This document shows, one piece after another, positions 4,548 to 47,032 of a DNA stretch of 47,225 nt. The DNA comes from Candidatus Poribacteria bacterium. Lineage in GTDB: Bacteria > Poribacteria > WGA-4E > WGA-3G. Position numbers and translations under genes: made by a program. The DNA lies in contig VXPE01000088.1 in the NCBI GenBank assembly GCA_009839745.1, positions 2,309 through 49,533 of the forward strand, written 5' to 3'. The notes beneath the pieces were generated by a model. That model saw nothing but the letters and a program-made list of their open reading frames with translations, was not told where the DNA came from and did no database searches. Each line of letters starts with the position of its first letter. The first letter of the stretch is position 1.

Positions 4548-4580
4548 TACCACTTAACCGAAAGGAAAAATTAAAAACGT

Positions 4581-6270: not shown

Positions 6271-6288
6271 TGGTGCATTAGAAAAACC

Positions 6289-6312
6289 GGTAGGTGCGGT
6301 TTCTAACCGCAC
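6289..6312. repeat. Short GC palindrome, copy 1 (GGTAGGTGCGG family)
   Basis: GGTAGGTGCGGTTTCTAACC is followed by GCAC, giving a hairpin of GTGCGGTT with AACCGCAC. The same core occurs at 11840-11866 inside MITE B and at 32432-32456 inside MITE C. It therefore behaves as a mobile palindromic module that travels alone or inside larger elements. Confidence 0.6.
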
Positions 6313-6375
6313 GGATCCGTCGGTGTACACTCAATTTTCCTATAATGCGCAGCTCACAAATACATATTGCAAAGT

Positions 6376-17880: not shown

Positions 17881-18027
17881 GTAGGTATGATAACATCTTT
17901 TATACCAAAATTTCAAATTAAATTATGAAGGTTTTTCCGGCACAAATCAACTAACAAAAAAGGACTGCATCAGTTCTCTGCTTCGTTTACGGAAAGCTAC
18001 GGTTACAGAAATTATCTTAAGACAGCA

Positions 18028-18085
18028 GCCTGTAACAATACGCAGAAATACGCAGAAACGCCCAAGCAAGACCCCAAGCGAAAAC
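18028..18085. repeat. Dispersed repeat module (CTGTAACAATACGCAGAAAT) upstream of lptF
   Basis: The words CAATACGCAGAAATACGCAG and CCCAAGCAAGACCCCAAGCG recur upstream of nusB (27852-27877) and, inverted, upstream of the NHL gene (28430-28490). Together with the AATTAAAAAATG start motif of lptF, this places the gene among those with composite repeat leaders. The rest of the 277-bp gap shows nothing else. Confidence 0.65.
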
Positions 18086-18157
18086 ACGCAGGCGGATATA
18101 AGGAAAACAACTCATAAACAGACCATCTTATTTTAACGTCTTGTGAACAATTAAAAA

Positions 18158-19357
18158 ATGAGAATATTAGCGCGGTATATACTTAAAGAATTTCTTCCAC
18201 CATTCATCATAGCACTTATCTGTTTTACCTTTATCCTCATCTTCGATGACCTTTTTCGGTTGACGAAGCTTTTCGTGCAAAAGGGGATAAGTCCGGTTTA
18301 CCTTGTTGAGTTGCTCCTCTATGTGATGCCCGCTTCGGTTGTGTTATCTCTTCCGATGGCGGCTTTGGTCGCGATTTTACTTTCTCTCGGAAGACTCTCT
18401 ACCAATAATGAAATTATCGCAATGAAAGCACACGGGGTCGCTTTCCATCATCTGATGCTTCCGCTTTTAGGCATAGCAGTGGTGCTGAGCGTCGCTGATC
18501 TCGCATTGATGGACTACGCACTACCAAGGGCAAATCTCGCTTACGCCACACTCAAACGCGACATTCAAAGACACAATCCGACGTTCGTTCTGGAAGAAGC
18601 CACCGTTATGAAGGAGCTGGAGAGAGAAGGCAAGTTATGGATGTACGAATCCACAGATGCTAAGAGCGGACGCATGCAGGATGTCAAAATATGGGATGGT
18701 ATTTGGACTGGACGCCCTCGGTTCAGTCACGCGCAAGAGGGGACCCTCGGTTTTGAAAATGGCAGAGCCGTGCTCACGCTTTACGATGGACTCACTTATG
18801 AACCGACAACCGATAATTTAGATGGATATCGTATAACAAAGTTCCAGCAACAACAACTTGCACTGCAGTTGACCGAGGATCTGGAGCGTGGTGCCTTACA
18901 GAACCAAACACCACGGTCAATGACTATTGTCCAACTCAAGGCATTCATCAATAAGTTAGAAGCCTCCGTCCCAACGAGTCAGAATCCTGATTATACCCGT
19001 AGTAGACTCCGTTTGGCGGAGGTTGAATACCACAAAAAGTTTTCTATCCCTTTCGCGTGTTTAGCGTTCGGATTAATGGGCGTGCCCCTTGGGTTGATGG
19101 TAAAACAGGGAGGTAAGATGATTGGGTTTGGCATCGGCTTAACTGTCATCTTGGTTTACTACCTCCTGCTTCAAATCGGTCAAAGTGCGGGTTTGAACGG
19201 CATGGTATCCCCTGCCCTTGCCATGTGGCTTCCCAATATTGTTATTGGTGCGTTCGGCATTTTTCTGAGTGTCCGCATGATAGGCGAAGGAACGCTGCGG
19301 ACGTGGCGTGCCCGAGACAAGCTGACGCTTGTCGTCAATAGGAAAGCCGAATCTTGA
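18158..19357 (+). CDS. lptF: LPS export permease subunit LptF
   Basis: 399 residues of the YjgP/YjgQ family. The N-terminal helix (MRILARYILKEFLPPFIIAL) is followed by further helices, a periplasmic beta-jellyroll part (residues about 130-250), and C-terminal helices containing FSIPFACLAFGLMGVPLGLM. LptF and LptG form the inner-membrane part of the LptB2FG machine that extracts lipopolysaccharide toward the outer membrane. The start reads AATTAAAAAATG with no classical Shine-Dalgarno. Its stop overlaps the start of lptG. This pair supports an LPS-bearing outer membrane. Confidence 0.9.
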   Translation: MRILARYILKEFLPPFIIALICFTFILIFDDLFRLTKLFVQKGISPVYLVELLLYVMPASVVLSLPMAALVAILLSLGRLSTNNEIIAMKAHGVAFHHLMLPLLGIAVVLSVADLALMDYALPRANLAYATLKRDIQRHNPTFVLEEATVMKELEREGKLWMYESTDAKSGRMQDVKIWDGIWTGRPRFSHAQEGTLGFENGRAVLTLYDGLTYEPTTDNLDGYRITKFQQQQLALQLTEDLERGALQNQTPRSMTIVQLKAFINKLEASVPTSQNPDYTRSRLRLAEVEYHKKFSIPFACLAFGLMGVPLGLMVKQGGKMIGFGIGLTVILVYYLLLQIGQSAGLNGMVSPALAMWLPNIVIGAFGIFLSVRMIGEGTLRTWRARDKLTLVVNRKAES

Positions 19358-20415
19358 ATATTTTAGATCGATACCTGCTTCGCGAATACCTGAAAGCCTT
19401 TTTTGTGGGGCTTTTATTTTTTATTGCACTGATTATTATCGTCCGTTTGCTGGATAAGGACATCAAGAAGTTTGATGATGATGTCGCTTATATAACGGCT
19501 GTTAAAATCGTTCTCTACCAAGCACCTCGTCGGATTATGGAGGTAGTGCCTGTTGCTGCATTTGTCGCTATCTTTTTTGTGCTGGGTAGGATGGTCCAAA
19601 GCAACGAGTTCACTGCTATGAAGGCGGGGGGGCTTAGCGTTTACCGGCTCCTCGTTCCTATTGTGATTGTAATGATCGTTATTTGTGGATTCTTCGCGCT
19701 TTTTTATAACCGAGTCGCGGCACCCGCCTTTCATGAAGCACATCTTTTACAAAATAACGTTAGACCGCGTCGCGGCAGAAACATCGTCTTCAAAGGCAAG
19801 GGCGACCGTATTTTTTACTCGCAGCGAATTGCTTTGGACGCACGTAAAATCCAACAACTCACCATCTATGAACATGATACAGAGGGGAAACTCGCTCGCG
19901 TAACCTTCGCAAAGGCAGCGGAGTGGACCGCTACCCACTGGCAACTAACGGATGGATACATTCGCCACTTTGAAGGCGGGATAGAGGTTGGTTATGATGC
20001 CTTCGATAGGCATGCGATTGAACGATACGAGGATCCTGCCCGTTTTATCGGGAGTGAAAAAGATCCGAGAGCGATGACCATTGAAGAACTCCGCCAGCAG
20101 ATCACCTATAAGCAGGAAGCCGGACAGATTTCGCGCAAAGAGCAGGTAAAGTTGTATCACAAAACAGCGTACCCGTTCGCGGCTGTCGTTGTTGTTATGC
20201 TTGGCGCGCCTATTGCTATCCGTTTTGGGAGAGCAGGTTTCTTCGCGGGGCTCGTGATGGCTTTCTTCCTCTCTTTTATCTATTGGGCACTCTCCTTCGC
20301 AACACTTGAGGGATTGAGTGAAAGCGGAAAACTTCATCCCTTTCTTGCCTGTTGGGGCGCGAACATCCTCTACGCTGCTGTCGGAGGTATCATGATCTGG
20401 CGCACCCCGAAATAA
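19354..20415 (+). CDS. lptG: LPS export permease subunit LptG, TTG start
   Basis: 353 residues. The frame opens with NILDRYLLREYLKAFFVGLL, the usual LptG N-terminus, directly from a TTG codon that overlaps the lptF TGA (TTGA). No ATG is available nearby, so a TTG start with translational coupling is the best reading. A periplasmic domain lies between the N- and C-terminal helix groups, and the last helices contain YPFAAVVVVMLGAPIAIRFG. It works with LptF and the LptB ATPase, which is not in the window. Confidence 0.9.
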   Translation: MNILDRYLLREYLKAFFVGLLFFIALIIIVRLLDKDIKKFDDDVAYITAVKIVLYQAPRRIMEVVPVAAFVAIFFVLGRMVQSNEFTAMKAGGLSVYRLLVPIVIVMIVICGFFALFYNRVAAPAFHEAHLLQNNVRPRRGRNIVFKGKGDRIFYSQRIALDARKIQQLTIYEHDTEGKLARVTFAKAAEWTATHWQLTDGYIRHFEGGIEVGYDAFDRHAIERYEDPARFIGSEKDPRAMTIEELRQQITYKQEAGQISRKEQVKLYHKTAYPFAAVVVVMLGAPIAIRFGRAGFFAGLVMAFFLSFIYWALSFATLEGLSESGKLHPFLACWGANILYAAVGGIMIWRTPK

Positions 20416-20416
20416 T

Positions 20417-20568
20417 CAAACCGACTTCACCGAACCGCAAGGAAAATTAGGCGAATAGTGTATGGGTAAACCCAGAGCCAATAGCCCGTAATGAAATGGA
20501 GGGCGGCTATACGGAGAGGCATATAAAAGTTCAAACCGACTTCACCGAACCGCAAGGAAAATTAAAAG
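20417..20568 (+). repeat. Composite dispersed repeat with duplicated right end
   Basis: A right-end unit (CGACTTCACCGAACCGCAAG then GAAAATTA) occurs twice, at 20417-20449 and 20532-20564, as a 33-bp direct repeat. Between them is the left module GCCCGTAATGAAATGGAGGG (20484-20503). The second right end runs straight into the reading frame of the downstream methyltransferase. It belongs to the family described at 27826-27962. Confidence 0.7.
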
Positions 20569-20647
20569 AATTGGCAACTTCTTCTTCAAAATTCGCAGTT
20601 TCACGCCTATCCCTTTCATCCTCGCACTCCTCTATTTTGCTGAACCT

Positions 20648-27281: not shown

Positions 27282-27725
27282 AGGTTTGTTCCTTTTTCTG
27301 CTTGGCTTCTACCAAAATCTGTAGTCCCTAATGAAATGGAGGTGTTCCTGCTTGGGGTCTTTGCTAATGTAATACGCGGAATTCTAAAAGTTTTTCACAG
27401 AATTGTCAAGTATTTCGAGCAATGTAAACGTTTTTTCACATATTATAACCCACATTGCTACTTACAACGTTTTAGACAGGGATATGGCATTTTCGTTTAA
27501 AAATACAAGGAATTTCCTCTAATTCTGGTTTTCTATGGGGTCCTATCCCTACAATTCTTGCTGATTTTCCATAAGGTGGCAACTTAGGTTATTATAGTAA
27601 AATTTGAAATTTAAGGGGACATTTTTGCGGGTAGGGCAATTTATAGTAAACGTAAAAAATAATCTCTAAAATTACGGATTTGAAGATCGCACCAGCAAAA
27701 GAACTGAACGCCTCTGGAGTTTTAT
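27282..27725. other. Repeat-bearing intergenic region
   Basis: No gene is seen in this gap. It holds a left module of the composite repeat (GTAGTCCCTAATGAAATGG, 27321-27339) with the associated GCTTGGGGTCTTTGCT word, and a partial MITE B relative (27592-27650). The rest is AT-rich without clear structure. Confidence 0.6.
27592..27650. repeat. Diverged partial copy of MITE B
   Basis: TTATAGTAAAATTTGAAATT (27592-27611) and the following AAGGGGACATTTTTGCGGG align with the left half of MITE B at 11801. A second TTATAGTAAA (27641-27650) is in direct rather than inverted orientation, so this is a rearranged relative. Confidence 0.5.
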
Positions 27726-27825: not shown

Positions 27826-27962
27826 GTAGTCCTTAATGAAATGGGGAGCCTGCAACAATACGCAGAAATACGCAGGGTTCTTGAGAGGGTATCTCTTCAG
27901 ATTCAAGAAACGCACTTTAAAGATAGAACGACCGTAATTTCTCCGCAAGGTATAATTAAAAA
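27826..27962 (+). repeat. Composite dispersed repeat forming the nusB leader
   Basis: In order: left module GTAGTCCTTAATGAAATGG (27826-27844), middle module CAATACGCAGAAATACGCAG (27854-27873), a CGCACTTTAAAG word (27910), and right end CCGCAAGGTATAATTAAAAA (27943-27962) touching the nusB ATG. Other full or partial copies: 20417-20568, 28379-28562, 33488-33505, 35349-35368 (minus) and 46806-46890 (minus). The AAGG inside the right end may serve as Shine-Dalgarno, twelve bases before the ATG. Confidence 0.75.
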
Positions 27963-28379
27963 ATGTCTCTTCGTAGGCGATCTCGCATCGTTGCGATGCA
28001 AATACTGTATCAGATCCAACTCACCGCCTCGCCAGTACCAATCGTTACAGAACGGTTTTGGGAAAGTCAAGACACATCGGTAGAACTCCGACCTTTCGCT
28101 CTGGAACTTGTTAAAGGCACGACTGCGCATCTGGAAGCAATTGATACAGTCCTTCAAAACACATCCAAAAATTGGCAACTTCACCGGATGCCTGTCGTCG
28201 ATCTCTCTATTCTGCGATGTGCAACTTATGAGATTCTCTATATCGACGATATTGATCCAGCAACCTCGATCAACGAGGCGATTGAGATCGCTAAATCTTA
28301 CAGCACGCCAGACTCCCCTAAATTTATCAATGGTATCTTGGACAATATCCAAAAAAGTGCCAGCAATTCCAAAACGTGA
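27963..28379 (+). CDS. nusB: Transcription antitermination factor NusB
   Basis: 138 residues, the usual NusB length. The N-terminal RRRSRIVAMQILYQIQ and the C-terminal VDLSILRCATYEILYIDDID, TSINEAIEIAKSYSTPDSPK and FINGILDNI are diagnostic. NusB binds boxA RNA with NusE to promote antitermination of rRNA transcription. The start follows the AATTAAAAAATG motif at the end of the repeat leader. It has a perfect promoter about 210 bp upstream. Its TGA lies at the beginning of the next composite repeat. Confidence 0.95.
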   Translation: MSLRRRSRIVAMQILYQIQLTASPVPIVTERFWESQDTSVELRPFALELVKGTTAHLEAIDTVLQNTSKNWQLHRMPVVDLSILRCATYEILYIDDIDPATSINEAIEIAKSYSTPDSPKFINGILDNIQKSASNSKT

Positions 28380-28562
28380 GCCCGTCATGTAATGGAGGGG
28401 GGCTTGGGGTTTTTGATAGGGGTTTTTGATAGGGGTCTTTGCTTGGGCATTTCTGCGTATTTCTGTGTATTTCTGCGCATTTCTGCGTATTTCTTCAGGT
28501 CTAAGGAATGCGCTTTAGCGTTTAGAGACAGGTTGCTTCCCCGCAAGGAAAAATTTAAAAAA
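28379..28562 (+). repeat. Composite dispersed repeat before the NHL/barrel gene
   Basis: Left module GCCCGTCATGTAATGGAGG (28380-28398), a GGGGTTTTTGATA tandem pair, a run of TATTTCTGCG units (28448-28493, the inverse of the CGCAGAAATA module), a CGCTTTAGCG word, and right end CCGCAAGGAAAAATTTAAAA (28541-28560). Long open frames through this repeat create a spurious N-terminal extension of the following gene. Confidence 0.7.
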
Positions 28563-28577
28563 GGACAACTTAAAAAT

Positions 28578-30383
28578 TTGAAAAACTTGACGTTTTGTTT
28601 GCTACTCCTGCTTTCAATGCCTGTAAACGCCGCGCAGGAATTCAAATTCGTTAATGCGTTCGGTGAAAAAGGGGTGGGCGAAGCGCAATTTGCTAAAACC
28701 TTGTTCATGGCGTTTGGACCTGATGGTGCTATTTACGTAACGGATACAGATAATTTCCGAATCCAGAAGTTCAATGGAACTGGGGAGTTCGCATTTGACA
28801 TCCAGATGAAGGCGGAGAGCGAGTTTCGGTTCATTAACCCTACGGCTATCGCTATCGGCACGGATAGTAGTATCTATGTAATGGACTGGATGTTCGTGGA
28901 GATCTCAGACGCACACCTACAAGAAACACAAGGTCCTAAGGTCTTTAACTACGGTCCATGTATCCATAAGTTTGACGCACAGGGTGTATTTGTCACAAGT
29001 TATCCGATCCAAGATTTGAGCCAACGGATAAAGCCGCTTGAAGTCGCTGCCCCTGGTTTGGACGCAGACGGTAATTATGCCCTGATTATTCCACAGGGAA
29101 ACACGAAACGAGAATTCTTATTAGCAATTGACCTTCACAATAACCTCTATGTTTGCGACAGAGATGTCCCGAATAAGCTTATTGTCAAACTTGATGTGAA
29201 CGGCAAAACCGTTGCCCGCTATTTCCTTGATCAACCCGGCGCAGGACACGTCGCGCAGCCCACGGATATGGCAGTGGATAAAGTTGGGAATCTCTATGTT
29301 GTTGATAAAAAGGGGCATCGGGTCCTGAAATATAACGCCGATGGAAGGTTCGAGCGTGACTTTGGCAAATATGGCGACGCAGCGGCGGAATTTATCGCAC
29401 CTTTTCGGGTAGCCGCATTGGCGGACGGAACGCTCCTTGTCGCGGATACAGCGAAGTACTTAAAGGACTTCGCCTCCACGCTTCCGAAACGGCTTGACGA
29501 TCCGACGCGACGCTACGATGGCTATACAAGGCAGTTTCGCTACCGGCTGCGGCGCATCCAGCGGTTTACCACAGATGGCACCTATATACAGAAACTTCTT
29601 GTCCCGTTTCGACGAGAAGTTGAGACAGATGTCGCACTCCAGCTCAAAGGTATTGACGGACATGGAAACCTTTACTATCTGAATCCAGCAGAATTGCGAT
29701 TTAGGAAATACGCACCGACCACGTCATTGATATCTTCAATGTTTCAAACGGAACTCAAACTCCGGTATACACGCGACCTACACGACGTTGAAATCGACAA
29801 CCAAGATGATTTGGACGCAGATCTTTATACCAAGTCCGATTTTGATGAACAGATTATTCAGGATACGGCGCATGCAAATTTAATTTTTTCTTATGATCTC
29901 AATGAATCATACCGCATCGCATTGTCAAACCGACTCACTTACGTCCGAATGACCGATACGAGTTATTACCGGGCACGGGATTTTGAGGACTTCCGCGGAC
30001 GCTTCAATCAAGACGATCGGGCAACTGAGAACACTTGGGACGATCGCATTCAGCTTGATTTTACATGGGTTCGTGATCACAGTCTCTACAATTATCGGGA
30101 AGTACGAGCTTTTGCCTACTTTAGTGCCATCCGCCTCGATTTCATCAACGATGCCCTTGACAGTTTCAATTACCGCTTCTTTGACTTCAACGCGAATCTC
30201 TCCGACTGGGGAGCCGGGATACATTACGACTTAAGTCGAACGTTCCGCTTGAATTTTGAAATCACACATTTCTTCGGCAAAAACCGATATACCTATATTG
30301 ACGAAACGAATATCCTCTACGCCACAGGTTTTCAGGAAGGCGACCTGACACGCGCAGTTTTGTTTATAAATGGGATCTTTTAA
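28578..30383 (+). CDS. NHL beta-propeller fused to an outer-membrane barrel-like C-terminal domain
   Basis: About 601 residues from TTG 28578, chosen because a signal peptide (NLTFCLLLLLSMPVNAAQEF) starts there; the open frame upstream is repeat translation. AAGGA lies about 15 bases upstream. Residues about 25-330 carry NHL-type blades (AFGPDGAIYVTDTDNFRIQK, DKVGNLYVVDKKGHRVLKYN). From about 370 on, the sequence changes to strand-rich, aromatic- and charge-alternating segments (NLIFSYDLNESYRIALSNRL, FRLNFEITHFFGKNRY) ending in ...FINGIF, as outer-membrane barrels do. A surface-anchored propeller would be the result. The barrel call is inference from pattern. Confidence 0.65.
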   Translation: MKNLTFCLLLLLSMPVNAAQEFKFVNAFGEKGVGEAQFAKTLFMAFGPDGAIYVTDTDNFRIQKFNGTGEFAFDIQMKAESEFRFINPTAIAIGTDSSIYVMDWMFVEISDAHLQETQGPKVFNYGPCIHKFDAQGVFVTSYPIQDLSQRIKPLEVAAPGLDADGNYALIIPQGNTKREFLLAIDLHNNLYVCDRDVPNKLIVKLDVNGKTVARYFLDQPGAGHVAQPTDMAVDKVGNLYVVDKKGHRVLKYNADGRFERDFGKYGDAAAEFIAPFRVAALADGTLLVADTAKYLKDFASTLPKRLDDPTRRYDGYTRQFRYRLRRIQRFTTDGTYIQKLLVPFRREVETDVALQLKGIDGHGNLYYLNPAELRFRKYAPTTSLISSMFQTELKLRYTRDLHDVEIDNQDDLDADLYTKSDFDEQIIQDTAHANLIFSYDLNESYRIALSNRLTYVRMTDTSYYRARDFEDFRGRFNQDDRATENTWDDRIQLDFTWVRDHSLYNYREVRAFAYFSAIRLDFINDALDSFNYRFFDFNANLSDWGAGIHYDLSRTFRLNFEITHFFGKNRYTYIDETNILYATGFQEGDLTRAVLFINGIF

Positions 30384-31352: not shown

Positions 31353-32408
31353 GTGTTGAAGAAACTTTATTTCTCTTTTAGCAGTGTAACTTGCAAGCGT
31401 GTATTGCAAGCGTGTATTATTTTTATCGGTGTTATGGCGTGCGCATTCGTTTTTGGTGATGAAGGACATGAGCATTCAGGGGACCGGATAAAAGAATTAG
31501 TAACCCAACCACTTACGCTTCAACTGGCGATTGTTGCCCTTGTTGTTTCGTTTGTGTTAGGGGGATTGCATGCTTTAACACCCGGACACGGCAAAGCTAT
31601 AGTGGCTGCCTACCTCGTCGGTTCTAAAGGTAGGGTCATTGATGCGGTGTTCCTTGGGCTTGTCGTTACCTTTACGCATACCTTCAGTGTTATAGCACTC
31701 GGAGTCGTCATGTTGGTAGCCCAAGAGTTTGCACCGGAGGATATCGTTCCGTGGTTGAGCCTGTTCTCTGGTGCTTTGATTGTTGGTATCGGGGCATGGC
31801 TGCTTGCCAGAAACATGAAGCAGTATTATAGCGGTGGCGCGCACAGCCGCGGTCATAGTCAAACACCCCATCCGCATGATCATTCACATGACCACGACCA
31901 TCCGCATGCAGACGACCACGATCACGAACACGATCCTTCACATGAGCATTCGCATGATGATGACCATGGACATTCACATGATGATGACCATGGACATTCA
32001 CATGATGATGACCATGGACATTCACATGACTACACGCATACACACAGTCATGGTGGGCGGACGCATAGTCATGCACCTCCAGAACGAACAGGTTTTTGGA
32101 GTTTACTATCGCTCGGTATCTCTGGGGGTATCGTGCCCTGCGTCGATGCGCTCATCGGACTCCTATTCGCGATTAGTCTTGGCAAACTTGTATGGGGCTT
32201 AATTATCCTCTGTGCTTTCTCATTCGGGCTTGCTGCCGTGTTGGTTGCTATCGGTATTCTAATGGTGATGGCGAAACCGTTGATTGCGCGGTTTACAGGC
32301 GAAGGTATTTGGCTACAACGCCTACCGATTATGAGTGCTGCCGTCGTCATTCTGCTCGGTGCGATATTAGTGTTCAAGGCATTTAACACTATCGGCGTTC
32401 ACATTTAA
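31353..32408 (+). CDS. NicO/RcnA-type nickel-cobalt transporter with long His-rich loop
   Basis: 351 residues starting with GTG, three bases after the previous stop. A hydrophobic N-terminus is followed by the family motif GGLHALTPGHGKAIVAAYL and about six membrane helices. Between helices, residues about 160-245 are mostly His and Asp (HSHDDDHGHSHDDDHG), a metal-binding loop. GISGGIVPCVDALIGLLFAI is the second conserved block. The protein probably exports nickel, cobalt or a similar ion across the inner membrane; direction is inferred from RcnA similarity. Confidence 0.85.
   Translation: MLKKLYFSFSSVTCKRVLQACIIFIGVMACAFVFGDEGHEHSGDRIKELVTQPLTLQLAIVALVVSFVLGGLHALTPGHGKAIVAAYLVGSKGRVIDAVFLGLVVTFTHTFSVIALGVVMLVAQEFAPEDIVPWLSLFSGALIVGIGAWLLARNMKQYYSGGAHSRGHSQTPHPHDHSHDHDHPHADDHDHEHDPSHEHSHDDDHGHSHDDDHGHSHDDDHGHSHDYTHTHSHGGRTHSHAPPERTGFWSLLSLGISGGIVPCVDALIGLLFAISLGKLVWGLIILCAFSFGLAAVLVAIGILMVMAKPLIARFTGEGIWLQRLPIMSAAVVILLGAILVFKAFNTIGVHI
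31947..32030 (+). repeat. 24-bp tandem repeat coding for the His-rich loop
   Basis: Three 24-bp units (31947-31970, 31971-31994, 31995-32018), the last two identical and the first with one change, plus a partial fourth. Each adds HSHDDDHG. The unit length keeps the frame, so copy number can vary between strains. Confidence 0.9.
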
Positions 32409-32413
32409 GATAT

Positions 32414-32501
32414 AGGACTTACGCACTTCCGCGGTAGGTGCGGTTTCTAACCGCACCGAGTGCGTCATATAAACCTAATTCTCTGATTTTGCGTAAGTCC
32501 T
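32414..32501. mobile_element. MITE C: 88-bp element with perfect 12-bp terminal inverted repeats
   Basis: AGGACTTACGCA (32414-32425) and TGCGTAAGTCCT (32490-32501) are perfect inverted repeats. The GGTAGGTGCGG palindrome is in the middle (32432-32456). AAGATA occurs one base outside each end (32407-32412 and 32503-32508) and may be a target duplication. The element fills most of the gap between two genes. Only one copy is in the window. Confidence 0.75.
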
Positions 32502-33433: not shown

Positions 33434-33500
33434 TGCTTCCTTAATTCAAACACGAAAAACGTTAAAGTCCTAACTCACATTCTTTATCCGCAAGGTAAAA

Positions 33501-35348
33501 TTAAAGATACCATTGCGCTTGTGCCCTGAAAAACTGGGCATACAACCCATCGTTTGCCAGTAGCGTCTCATGGTCCCCATCCTCAACGATTGTTCCATTA
33601 TCGATGACAAGAATCCGATCGCAGGAGCGGACAGAGGAGAGACGGTGCGAAATTAACACGGATGTCCGTCCGGCACTCCGCTCAATAAATCGTTCATAGA
33701 TCGCCTGTTCAGCGAGCGGATCGAGGGCAGCAGTCGGTTCATCGAGGACAACGAGCCATGGGGTTTCCCGCATGAAACTCCTGGCTGTTGCCAAACGCTG
33801 CCATTCGCCACCGGAGAGATCGCGCCCGCCAAATGTGGGCCCCAGTGTTGTTTCGTAACCCTCTGTGAGTCCATCAACAACCGAAGCTGCACCCCCCGCA
33901 ATTGATGCCTCTTCCATACGTTCGGGATGTTCTAAATCTCCAAAGATAATGTTTTCACGGGCAGTGAGATGATAACTGGTGAAGTCCTGAAAAACCGCAC
34001 TGCAATGCGTCAACCACGCTTGACGGTTCTCGTCGTTTAAGGAGACATCCCCTACGTGAATTGTGCCTGCCTGTGGACGGTAGAGTCCCAAAAGGACACG
34101 TGCCAATGTCGTTTTTCCTGCCCCGTTGGGTCCTACCAGTGCGACTCGCTCCCCTTTTTTCAATGTCACGTTTATATGATTTAGCACAGGGACTTGCGTA
34201 TTTGGATAGAGGAATGAAACATTTTCTATCCGAAGATATGGAGGTTCTTCAGCAGCCTGGAATGGATTCGTGTGAGCTTCCGAAAGGTGTTCGCCACCTA
34301 TCTTTGCTTTGATTGTGTCCGAGCCGCGATCTAAAAACGGATATAAATCTCCTGACAAACGGAGCATCTCGTTTCCTATCCACTGAAAATGACTAACGAC
34401 TTCGTTCCAGATACCATCCAATTGAACGAGGGCGGCGGCAGCAGCGATATAGGTCCCTACCGTCAATCCACCCCGAAAGACTTCCAGCAACAAGAGAATA
34501 AGCGAACACGCGTATAACAGACCGCGTGCTATGTCGATCGCAAGATGTGCGAAGAATTTGCGGCGTTCAATTACCTGTTGTTCTTCTATTAACGCCGTCC
34601 ATAAATTTCGCCAGCGTGTTATCCATAGGTCCTGCGCTTGGTATAACCGAACTTCTTTGCCTGCCCCGCGATCCGTCAGAATTCCTTCTAATGCGTCTCG
34701 CTCTCGCCGTTGTGGCGTTTGTTCTACATCAAGATTGTAAGCACTGGCGGCAAAGCGTGAACCGCTCCACCAAGAAGCTAAACCTGTGACCATAGGAAGC
34801 AATGCCAGCAACGGATGATAACGCCAAAGCACAATACCGAGTGCAACGGCACTGATTAATTGTTGGAGACTGTCAAAGATCCACCAGACAATCTCATCGA
34901 GTTCTATACCGGACATTGCACGGGCTCGCGCCAGTGAATTTTGAAATTCTGGGGTCTGGAATTCAGTCAGTTCTATTGTATTGGATTTCCGAACGATACT
35001 CTCATTCATCCACGCCTCAATGTTTGCTCCGACGTGAAGACGTAGCGGTTCCCGTAAATGATCGACAAGGATACTCAGAATTTGTAAACCGATCAGTCCT
35101 ATCAACCACGGAACGACTTGTTGCCACCAGTCAGCATCTCCTATAGCGGCGGTGATTGCATTGACTAAGCGTTCCGTCACAAAAAACTGACCGGCAGGCA
35201 CCACACCGAGCAACAGCGTGAGCAGCAGGACACCCAAAAGTGCCAATGCACCGTTCTGCCAAGTGATTGAAAAAGTTCGGATATAGGCGACGATGCTGTC
35301 TTTAACGACGGATCCCCATGATTTCAATGTTTTTTTAACGTTTCCCAT
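33501..35348 (-). CDS. ABC exporter (membrane domain plus ATPase), second of a pair
   Basis: 615 residues. An N-terminal six-helix exporter domain (residues about 15-340) is followed by an ATPase domain: Walker A GPNGAGKTTL (about 402), signature LSGGEWQ (about 509), Walker B WLVVLDEPTAALDP and the H-loop LISHRLSS. The start lies directly at the AATTAAAAAATG end of a composite repeat (AAGGAAGAATTAAAAAATG). It is homologous to the gene just upstream on the same strand, so the two could form a heterodimer. Substrate unknown; lipids, peptides or drugs are typical for the class. Confidence 0.85.
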   Translation of the reverse strand: MGNVKKTLKSWGSVVKDSIVAYIRTFSITWQNGALALLGVLLLTLLLGVVPAGQFFVTERLVNAITAAIGDADWWQQVVPWLIGLIGLQILSILVDHLREPLRLHVGANIEAWMNESIVRKSNTIELTEFQTPEFQNSLARARAMSGIELDEIVWWIFDSLQQLISAVALGIVLWRYHPLLALLPMVTGLASWWSGSRFAASAYNLDVEQTPQRRERDALEGILTDRGAGKEVRLYQAQDLWITRWRNLWTALIEEQQVIERRKFFAHLAIDIARGLLYACSLILLLLEVFRGGLTVGTYIAAAAALVQLDGIWNEVVSHFQWIGNEMLRLSGDLYPFLDRGSDTIKAKIGGEHLSEAHTNPFQAAEEPPYLRIENVSFLYPNTQVPVLNHINVTLKKGERVALVGPNGAGKTTLARVLLGLYRPQAGTIHVGDVSLNDENRQAWLTHCSAVFQDFTSYHLTARENIIFGDLEHPERMEEASIAGGAASVVDGLTEGYETTLGPTFGGRDLSGGEWQRLATARSFMRETPWLVVLDEPTAALDPLAEQAIYERFIERSAGRTSVLISHRLSSVRSCDRILVIDNGTIVEDGDHETLLANDGLYAQFFRAQAQWYL

Positions 35349-35408
35349 TTTTTAATTCTTCCTTGCGGTTCGATCAAGACAGATGACTTCCGGGCTTGTA
35401 AGCAGTTT

Positions 35409-45674: not shown

Positions 45675-45746
45675 ATGGTTCTTCGGTTAAAAAACGACAA
45701 AGTTATTAGTTTAACTAAAGTTTGGACAATTTTAAGGAATAATTAA
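45675..45746 (+). CDS. Possible 23-residue leader peptide before the Gfo/Idh/MocA gene
   Basis: AAAAGGAG lies seven bases before ATG 45675, a better ribosome site than that of the main gene. The frame reads MVLRLKNDKVISLTKVWTIL and stops (TAA 45744-45746) three bases before the next ATG. Translation would deliver ribosomes to the AATTAAAAAATG start. It has no recognisable regulatory codon run. It may be a leader peptide or the decayed end of an older gene. Confidence 0.4.
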   Translation: MVLRLKNDKVISLTKVWTILRNN

Positions 45747-45749
45747 AAA

Positions 45750-46799
45750 ATGAAAGAGGTCATCAGAGTTGGGATCATTGGTGTCGGTGGGACAATGAGT
45801 AGCACGACCGCTATTCTCGCCGCAGAGCCGAACGTAGAACTCGTCGCTTTGGCGGATCCGGATCCCACCCGCAGGAAACGGGTCTTGGATGGGATTAAAG
45901 GGGTCCGCGTTTTCGATGATTATCGGCAGATGTTTGACACCTGCGATTTAGACGCAGTCTGCATTGGGCTTCCAACGTGGATGCACGCCCCCGTCTCACA
46001 GGAAGCGGTGCAACTTGGGTTACATGTGCTCTGCGAGAAACCCCCCTCAAACAATGCGACAGAGTTAATACCGGTCACGCAGCTTGCCGCAACTAAAGGT
46101 CTTGTTTATATGTTTGTCCGTCAATCGCGGTTCACAGCCCAGTTGATGGAGGGGCGCAGGCTTGTGCAAGCTGGAGAACTCGGCGACGTATATTACGCGG
46201 AGACTCGGTGGATACGCACGCGATGGTGTTCCGCACGGGGATGGCGGCACGACAAAGCGAAAGGTGGCGGGGTCCTCCTGGATCTCGGTATTCACGCCAT
46301 TGATAACGTCTGGTTTATGATGGGCAATCCGCGTCCGACAGAGGTCATGGCTGGAATGTATTGCACTTTTTCTGACCTCGCACCTCCTGAACAAATTTAC
46401 ACCGCAGATGATGCAGCGTGCGGGTTTGTGCGGTTTGAGAACGGGTGCACCTTGCATTTTGCTGTCGCGTTTTCGATGAACACCACAAATCGGCAGACGC
46501 CAGCAAAGGGAACCGATCTGGTCAAAAGCGAGACGCAGGAGTTCCAACTTTACGGGACGAAGGCAGGACTCGAAAGCGGAAAACTCCTCGTTGGGACACC
46601 GGACGGTGTTAAGGTCAAACCCATAAAAGCACCGCCACAAAAAGCGGATGATATAACCCTTCAGGCGAGAGAATTCATTCGGGCGATTCGAGACGGAGAT
46701 GAACCCCTTAATTCCGGTTCGCAAGCAGTAATGCTGATGCAAATGCTCGATGGAGCAATGAAATCCAGTGAAATCGGCAGTGCTGTTACGATTTTTTAA
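45750..46799 (+). CDS. Gfo/Idh/MocA family NAD(P)-dependent oxidoreductase
   Basis: 349 residues. Rossmann start RVGIIGVGGTMSSTTAIL, then DLDAVCIGLPTWMHAPVSQE and the family landmark CEKPPS, which contains the conserved Lys. The C-terminal part (GGGVLLDLGIHAIDNVWFMM) carries the active-site D-x-x-x-H. Members oxidise or reduce sugars, inositols and similar compounds; the substrate is not predictable. It starts with AATTAAAAAATG and follows a short leader ORF. A reversed composite repeat begins a few bases after its stop. Confidence 0.85.
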   Translation: MKEVIRVGIIGVGGTMSSTTAILAAEPNVELVALADPDPTRRKRVLDGIKGVRVFDDYRQMFDTCDLDAVCIGLPTWMHAPVSQEAVQLGLHVLCEKPPSNNATELIPVTQLAATKGLVYMFVRQSRFTAQLMEGRRLVQAGELGDVYYAETRWIRTRWCSARGWRHDKAKGGGVLLDLGIHAIDNVWFMMGNPRPTEVMAGMYCTFSDLAPPEQIYTADDAACGFVRFENGCTLHFAVAFSMNTTNRQTPAKGTDLVKSETQEFQLYGTKAGLESGKLLVGTPDGVKVKPIKAPPQKADDITLQAREFIRAIRDGDEPLNSGSQAVMLMQMLDGAMKSSEIGSAVTIF

Positions 46800-46805
46800 T
46801 TTTTA

Positions 46806-46890
46806 ATTTTACCTTGCGGTTAAACAACGCTCGTTTAAAGTTTTAGGGCGTTCCTCAAATCCGCACTCCATTACATTACGTGCTACGGGT
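46806..46890 (-). repeat. Composite dispersed repeat, reverse orientation, after the Gfo/Idh/MocA gene
   Basis: Read on the minus strand: left module GTAATGTAATGGAG (about 46867-46880), then AACGCCCTAAAACTTTAAAC, and right end CCGCAAGGTAAAATTAAAAA (ending near 46800), in the same order as at nusB. No gene starts at its right end here. Between 46891 and 47032 there is only a TATACT-like box (46901-46906) and a CTGCC/GGCAG hairpin. Confidence 0.65.
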
Positions 46891-47032
46891 TTTGATGTTA
46901 TACTGGACAAATTCTCATGAGGGTTGTGGAGCCACCAGGTGTCTGCCTATAAGCGGAGCGGAAGGCAGGGCAGAAACTTAATGGTTAAAAAACCTGCAAG
47001 GACACTGCAGCCCAGGGGGACATAATTAAAAA

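Follow-up and report, generated by a model that had tools for sequence, protein, structure and literature searches.

A dispersed repeat of Candidatus Poribacteria with a putative portable translation-initiation module at its 3′ end

The stretch of DNA that was analysed (hereafter the window; 47,225 nt, G000:C88:2309-49533) belongs to G000, a 5.04-Mb MAG of Candidatus Poribacteria. An earlier note, made from the letters of the window, had described ordered composite modules at multiple sites and had regarded them as a mobile repeat that brings a ribosome binding site and places itself against start codons. The modules do occur in the described order at 27826-27962 and 28372-28560, and further copies were located at 20412-20571, 33455-33505, 35349-35381 (minus strand) and 46796-46902 (minus strand).

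RESULTS

Copy number and phylogenetic distribution

The exact right end of the repeat, CCGCAAGG-N3-AATTAAA, is found 324 times in the G000 genome (153 and 171 on the two strands), and the reversed pattern, taken as a control, has no match there. The spacer is 3 nt long, or 2 nt (N2) in a shorter right-end variant; the four-nucleotide spacer given in the earlier note was mistaken, the N4-AATT pattern being without a single match in the genome. A profile built from full copies of the repeat recovered 197 copies in 1.52 Mb of G000, which extrapolates to roughly 650 genome-wide, and matched nothing when run on reversed DNA. Among 35 other genomes of the genus, the eight closest to G000 have 81-335 exact copies each and the remaining congeners 0-54, while genomes of other genera of the order have none or one exact match each, with a single match overall. 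The repeat thus belongs to one Poribacteria genus, and in one subclade its copies have multiplied into the hundreds.

Structure of the repeat

The element is ~60-220 nt long. Full copies are composed, from left to right, of an often present TCAGTTATCAGTTAAGAGG-like lead, GTAG, hairpin 1, GGAT, hairpin 2, CCGCAAGG, three variable nucleotides and AATTAAA. Hairpin 1 exists in two forms, GCCC GTAATGAAATGGA GGGC and GCCTGC AACAACGGC GCAGGC, the latter followed by CGG, and in some copies its loop is enlarged by AATACGCAGAAATACCC...AAAACACGCAG modules. The left part and middle modules distinguished in the earlier note are thus present, but they are differently delimited: the 'optional CGCAGAAATA' is an expansion of the hairpin-1 loop, and 'CTTTAAAG' lies within hairpin 2.

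Stem variants show compensation (GCCC/GGGC, GCAC/GTGC, GCTC/GAGC, GTCC/GGAC). RNAalifold, applied to global alignments of the two subtypes, returned only hairpin 1 and a mini-loop, probably owing to misalignment, and its place was taken by a covariation test in which partners were permuted among 184 copies. Pair 44-58 of hairpin 1 is formed in 99% of the copies (TA in 72, CG in 61) versus 76% after permutation; in hairpin 2, pair 69-104 is formed in 83% (CG in 85, AT in 32) versus 47%, and pair 75-94 in 71% versus 49%. When copies are folded singly, hairpin 2 is in many of them closed by GCGG(A)/(T)CCGC, and in those folds AAGG constitutes the first unpaired bases on the 3′ side, followed by an A-rich tail, NNNAATTAAA. 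An extended CC-GCAA-GG tetraloop stem was considered and rejected, the flanking bases being mostly unpaired (A..A or T..T). The 3′ end of the host's own 16S rRNA, GGATCACCTCCTTTCT, contains a canonical anti-Shine-Dalgarno (anti-SD) sequence, and the AAGG of the element is complementary to CCTCCTTT. AAGG is therefore a legitimate SD core, and the potential for pairing with 16S rRNA that the earlier note had proposed is upheld.

Copies within the window

The nusB leader copy (27826-27962, plus strand) starts with GTAG at 27826, has a loop insert in hairpin 1 (TAATGAAATGG, CGCAGAAATACGCAG) and a hairpin 2 made of the ACTTTAAAG region, and continues with CCGCAAGG at 27943-27950 and a tail to 27962. 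The ATG of nusB (Pfam NusB, E=1.8e-37) follows at 27963, 12 nt after the AAGG; in relatives L075 and L076 nusB begins at the same ATG and the element is absent. The same spacing is seen for the right-end copy (35349-35381, minus strand) adjoining the ATG of an ABC exporter gene (35348, minus strand), so that both genes, as the earlier note had pointed out, begin directly at a right end. It is also seen for a right-end stub, AAGGAATAATTAAAAA (45734-45749, plus strand), placed directly before ATG 45750 of a Gfo/Idh/MocA gene. Before lptF (ATG 18158), a degenerate copy (18025-18157, plus strand) has hairpin 1 with a loop insert and a decayed core, GTCTTGTGAACAATTAAAAA; at the matching position of L073 the core is intact.

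The copy between nusB and the NHL-repeat gene (28372-28562, plus strand) carries a long loop insert (GGCATTTCTGCGTATTTCTG repeats), with CCGCAAGG at 28541-28548, and runs into a second right-end-like stub, AAGGACAACTTAAAAAT (28561-28577, plus strand). A TTG at 28578, 13 nt after the AAGG of this second stub, corresponds in alignment to the fourth codon of the native ORF, which in relatives begins MFNLKNLT. The NHL-repeat gene probably uses this TTG. Downstream of lptG, a 5′-truncated copy lies immediately 3′ of the gene (20412-20449, plus strand) and a full copy (20460-20571, plus strand; CCGCAAGG at 20550-20557) precedes the ICMT/PEMT-like gene (hereafter ICMT). Other copies lie towards gene ends: a 5′-truncated one (33455-33505, plus strand) points with its right end to the 3′ end of the ABC exporter gene, to which TTTTAATT, read from the other strand, gives a TAA stop, and a full one with the compensatory hairpin variant GCAC/GTGC (46796-46902, minus strand) is directed towards the end of the Gfo/Idh/MocA gene (ORF end 46799). 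A degenerate right-end stub, ACCGAAAGGAAAAATTAAAAA (4553-4577, plus strand), is away from any start codon, and a solitary left half comprising hairpin 1 and a loop-insert module (27308-27361, plus strand) corresponds to a full copy in G023.

Some other features of the window were recorded. lptF and lptG overlap at 19353-19354 (TTGA), whereas close relatives have a full element between the two genes and more distant ones a spacer of 54-226 nt; comparison of these arrangements suggests a probable precise loss of the spacer. His-rich tandem repeats (CATGACCAC...) occur at 31875-32051 within a NicO nickel-transporter gene, and the window edge (1-99) consists of a 33-bp tandem repeat, with two identical copies and a divergent third.

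A fixed spacing between AAGG and ATG

Among 187 distinct copies, 66 have an ATG exactly 12 nt after AAGG, compared with 5 at +11, 7 at +13 and a mean of ~3 at other positions, an excess of about 20-fold. The spacing is keyed to AAGG and not to AATT, since, counted from the A of ATT, the distance to ATG is mostly 8 nt in the N3 form but 9 nt in the N2 form. Nearly all of these codons (62 of 66) begin reading frames that span 77 aa or more and in most cases far exceed this length. Exact CGCAAGG is found at the same offset for 49 of 1022 gene starts, and most gene starts in the genome have an ordinary SD consensus. By placement counts based on a crude gene prediction, 120 of 157 intergenic copies (76%) aim at a same-strand start versus 52% of random intergenic points, and 58 of 157 (37%) end at most 2 nt from such a start versus 0.4% of random points. 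The genome-wide check for a bias towards ATG that the earlier note had called for thus gave a strongly positive answer. In loci fetched from other genomes, 10 of 71 copies had ATG at +12 against ~1 per position elsewhere, a replicate partly biased by the choice of loci.

At orthologous loci (nusB, lptF and an SDR gene) the ATG is native and the native leader is gone or displaced. Four copies end immediately before a native AAAGGAG (AATTAAA|AAAGGAG), and at nine places two right ends are stacked, with an ATG following in seven; in these cases it is the element's own SD or an older one that remains beside the gene. The downstream genes (e.g. nusB, lptF, ruvA, hemC, fmt, an SDR gene and the ABC exporter gene) are functionally unrelated. 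About two thirds of the copies (65%) are away from ATG+12: they face stop codons, lie in frame in genes or upstream of a native SD, or are non-genic.

Replacement of native starts

At the NHL and ICMT genes the earlier note had suspected that the native start region was replaced, and this is confirmed by relatives without the element, which read ATGTTTAACCTAAAAAAC and ATGATCTCCTCAAAAATTGGC there. The genomes compared are MAGs, and start replacement appears independently in several assemblies. Without the element, most congeners have ATG ATC TCC TCA AAA ATT GGC or a close variant at the beginning of the ICMT gene; with the element, the sequence becomes AAGG AAA ATT ARA ARA ATT GGC. In the window, an in-frame ATT AAA is located at 20561 and a second ATT at 20570, the next in-frame ATG, GTG or TTG being GTG 20648. 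The element is present at this locus in 11 genomes, 8 of which have no ATG, GTG or TTG from the upstream stop to codon 26 or later. Over those 26 codons pN/pS is 0.08 in the start-less genomes versus 0.07 in the genomes with the native ATG; given the value of 0.08, the N-terminal segment is evidently translated and under strong purifying selection. Upstream in-frame start codons do exist in G026 (ATG) and in two low-copy genomes (GTG). Read-through of TGA was dismissed for the start-less genes, the TGA of ICMT being directly preceded by an in-frame TAA. In G033 (locus L148), the ICMT gene has its native ATG although this genome falls within the high-copy clade and close relatives carry the element there, which could reflect recombination, precise loss or repeated insertion.

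In an outer-membrane protein gene, ATT AAA AAT CTT AAA stands where relatives have ATG AAA CAT CTT AAA, and ATTAAAAATCTTAAA where relatives have ATGAAACATCTTAAA. An SDR gene, and in three genomes a formylglycine-generating-enzyme-like gene, likewise show no canonical start before the conserved N-terminus. ATT is in frame in all start-less cases, yet lies only 3-4 nt from AAGG, too near for normal SD use, and the second ATT of ICMT stands at +12; the exact initiating codon is therefore uncertain. As a universal start ATT was discarded: in most copies it is out of frame with the gene (ATG +8 from ATT in the N3 form), and in several fusions (CoaBC, hemC, GlnQ-like) an ATG in the frame of the gene is located within the element or shortly before it. 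ATT is thus retained as a candidate start only where ATG, GTG and TTG are absent, and it is at those genes that initiation at ATT may take place.

Copies inside genes and at gene ends

Twenty-eight copies are situated within ORF models, 24 on the same strand and 4 antisense. One frame is often open through the element (V-A-R-N-E-M-E-G-G-Y-T-E-R-...-H-L-T-E-P-Q-G-K-I-K). The clearest example is the RNase J gene (L273, G000:C65:3789-5588), where the linker before the C-terminal domain contains LEGGSTENDSHISTHLTEPQGKIR in G000 and G023 has the corresponding peptide; this linker peptide is absent from G008, from other congeners and from PDB homologues including structure 3zq4. In-frame copies also exist in a permease-like gene and others. 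Where copies point towards a gene 3′ end, 22 of 37 are within 15 nt of it. The proximity to opposite-strand gene ends is largely explained by the reversed tail TTTTAATT, which supplies a TAA stop, and targeting was accordingly set aside as its cause.

Mobility, ends and search for a mobiliser

About 220 kb of G000 were compared with G023 and G008, the flanks being mostly 92-97% identical. Of the copies for which both flanks could be mapped, roughly one third differ between genomes, one having the element and another lacking it, and with such presence/absence between relatives about 94-97% identical the repeat is, as the earlier note had supposed, mobile over evolutionary time. A near-clean empty site, ATTGG|AAAATGAATCG, has a filled counterpart in which the element ends ...AATTAAAATATGGATCG, corresponding to an insertion directly at ATG. 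In other empty/filled pairs the spacer is replaced; many 'empty' sites differ beyond the element, and clean single insertions are rare. No target-site duplication was seen in the empty/filled pairs that were read, whose flanks are remodelled. Terminal inverted repeats are absent, the left (GTAGCC...) and right (CCGCAAGG-N3-AATTAAA) ends being unlike. The 3′ end is intact in 190 of 197 copies, whereas 5′ sequence is missing in 77 of 197, and only two solitary left halves were found. Moreover, 109 of 188 3′ ends lie against coding sequence (within 5 nt) or run into it, versus 39 of 188 5′ ends.

The genome contains RAYT and IS200/605 genes. Nevertheless, the 30 RAYT loci of the genus yielded a single weak fragment of the element, RAYT counts do not follow element copy number across genomes, and no ends matching an autonomous transposon were found near Y1 transposases; a RAYT or IS200 gene as adjacent mobiliser was therefore rejected. 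At several of these loci the RAYT gene is bordered by a different REP, GTAGGTGCGGTTTCTAACCGCACCGG, which recurs in the window at 6288 and 32432. The window sites (6288-6315 and 32432-32459; GTAGGTGCGGTTTCTAACCGCACCG) represent a classical second REP, of the type that flanks RAYT genes across the genus.

DISCUSSION

The repeat is quite probably a non-autonomous dispersed element, similar to REPs, MITEs or Rickettsia palindromic elements (RPEs), with a portable translation-initiation module at its 3′ end. Its single-stranded form would present a GTAG-led REP-like hairpin, an imperfect second hairpin (GCGG/CCGC), an exposed AAGG and an A-rich tail. A copy arriving just upstream of a gene would cause the native leader and SD to be lost or displaced, and the ribosome would then initiate from the AAGG of the element at the native ATG exactly 12 nt downstream. 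From its sequence, the element may well function as a ribosome binding site in vivo. Where the native ATG is gone, the start would probably be at an in-frame ATT, occasionally at TTG or GTG. The often-open frame (...HLTEPQGKIK) would allow some copies to be tolerated in frame within genes, and in reverse orientation the tail would give a TAA stop. Such built-in compatibility with translation could let the element spread through operons at little damage.

How the 3′ ends came to lie so precisely is a separate matter. The earlier note had the repeat 'placing itself' against start codons; the proximity stands, but it could come from selection on survivors, which probably accounts for the exact spacing. 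The alternative would be an enzyme that recognises initiation regions (SD, ATG) and sets the 3′ end of the element there, instead of selection acting on rare insertions. It would fit the ~20-fold excess at ATG+12, the exact spacing of 4 of 21 copies in divergent spacers, which offer plenty of neutral sites, the copies that stop directly before native SDs or the SDs of older copies, and the contrast between intact 3′ and truncated 5′ ends. But neither an ATG nor another clear motif appears in the right flank of non-genic copies, 59 of the 66 exact copies sit between co-directional genes, where few other positions would preserve translation, and there is no candidate enzyme, so that such targeting appears rather doubtful. 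The broader proposal, of a 3′ end adapted to serve as translation start for the target gene by delivering an SD at a set distance and, in some genes, AUU in place of AUG, through 3′-end-led, initiation-site-directed integration, is suggested by the intact 3′ ends, the frequent 5′ truncation and the abutment to ATG, SD or coding sequence. It would be a mechanism not described for bacterial repeats, and we put it forward only tentatively. That the repeat is a classical REP/REPIN, moved by a RAYT (Y1 transposase) and near start codons only incidentally, is unlikely. Hairpin 1 does have the GTAG, palindrome and CGG layout of REPs and RAYT genes are at hand, but their loci carry another REP family, their numbers do not track those of the element, the unit extends well past a REP, and a start proximity of 37% versus 0.4% within 2 nt is far from incidental.

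Two further explanations dispense with a mobile element acting as leader. The repeat could be a cis-regulatory RNA, i.e. a riboswitch or protein-binding leader of a regulon that exposes or hides AAGG and was spread by duplication. Two covarying hairpins immediately 5′ of the SD and the one third of copies that form leaders at fixed spacing would agree with this. Yet Rfam covariance models at the gathering threshold have no match within the window, the genes downstream are unrelated in function, loop and hairpin-2 sequences vary freely, and many copies are at gene ends, in frame in genes, 5′-truncated or polymorphic between sister genomes, which makes a regulatory RNA improbable. That AAGG-N12-ATG with an A-rich spacer is simply the usual initiation region of this genome, reached by convergence of native leaders, is hardly credible, even though the anti-SD is canonical and A-rich spacers occur in the genome. 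The motif runs through more than 100 nt of homologous hairpins, which excludes convergence for full-length copies, hundreds of copies exist, also away from starts, other genera of the order have next to none of it (one match), and most starts have the ordinary SD consensus.

The non-autonomous element proposed here shares features with several known systems. AUU initiation is found in infC and pcnB; here too genes apparently begin at ATT, but the candidate ATT start would have been brought by a repeat to unrelated genes. With REPs and REPINs and their RAYTs the Poribacteria element has in common the GTAG tetranucleotide, a GC-rich hairpin with CGG, hundreds of intergenic copies and the presence of RAYT genes; it differs by a second hairpin, an SD and an A-tail, and the RAYTs of the genus have their own REPs. 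Correia/NEMIS and other regulatory MITEs are also small non-autonomous repeats immediately upstream of genes, and alter expression through promoters, IHF sites and RNase III sites (PMC10969869). In the Poribacteria element, by contrast, no terminal inverted repeats or target duplication were found, and the predicted contribution is translational (SD, start codon). RPEs are short palindromic repeats of which copies can lie in frame within host genes, adding a peptide (PMC10969869), as in RNase J and the permease-like gene here; the likeness is one of description, and the Poribacteria element, from a different phylum, is found mainly at the translation start, where it would supply the SD and sometimes the start codon. 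The roles that a 2024 review assigns to prokaryotic MITEs are promoters, IHF sites, RNase sites, inactivation, sRNAs, possible riboswitches and terminators, as well as in-frame fusions (RPEs) (PMC10969869); supply of an SD or start codon by a repeat is neither among these roles nor in the open-access literature searched.

If the proposal is true, roughly 5-8% of the sampled genes draw their ribosome binding site from a mobile repeat, automated gene calling will put many starts of these genomes in the wrong place, and the copies amount to an experiment made by nature in which leader replacement, SD spacing and near-cognate (AUU) initiation can be studied. The repeat suggests a low-cost route for spread through operons and, in these sponge-symbiont Poribacteria, it appears to move a portable translation-start signal between genes.
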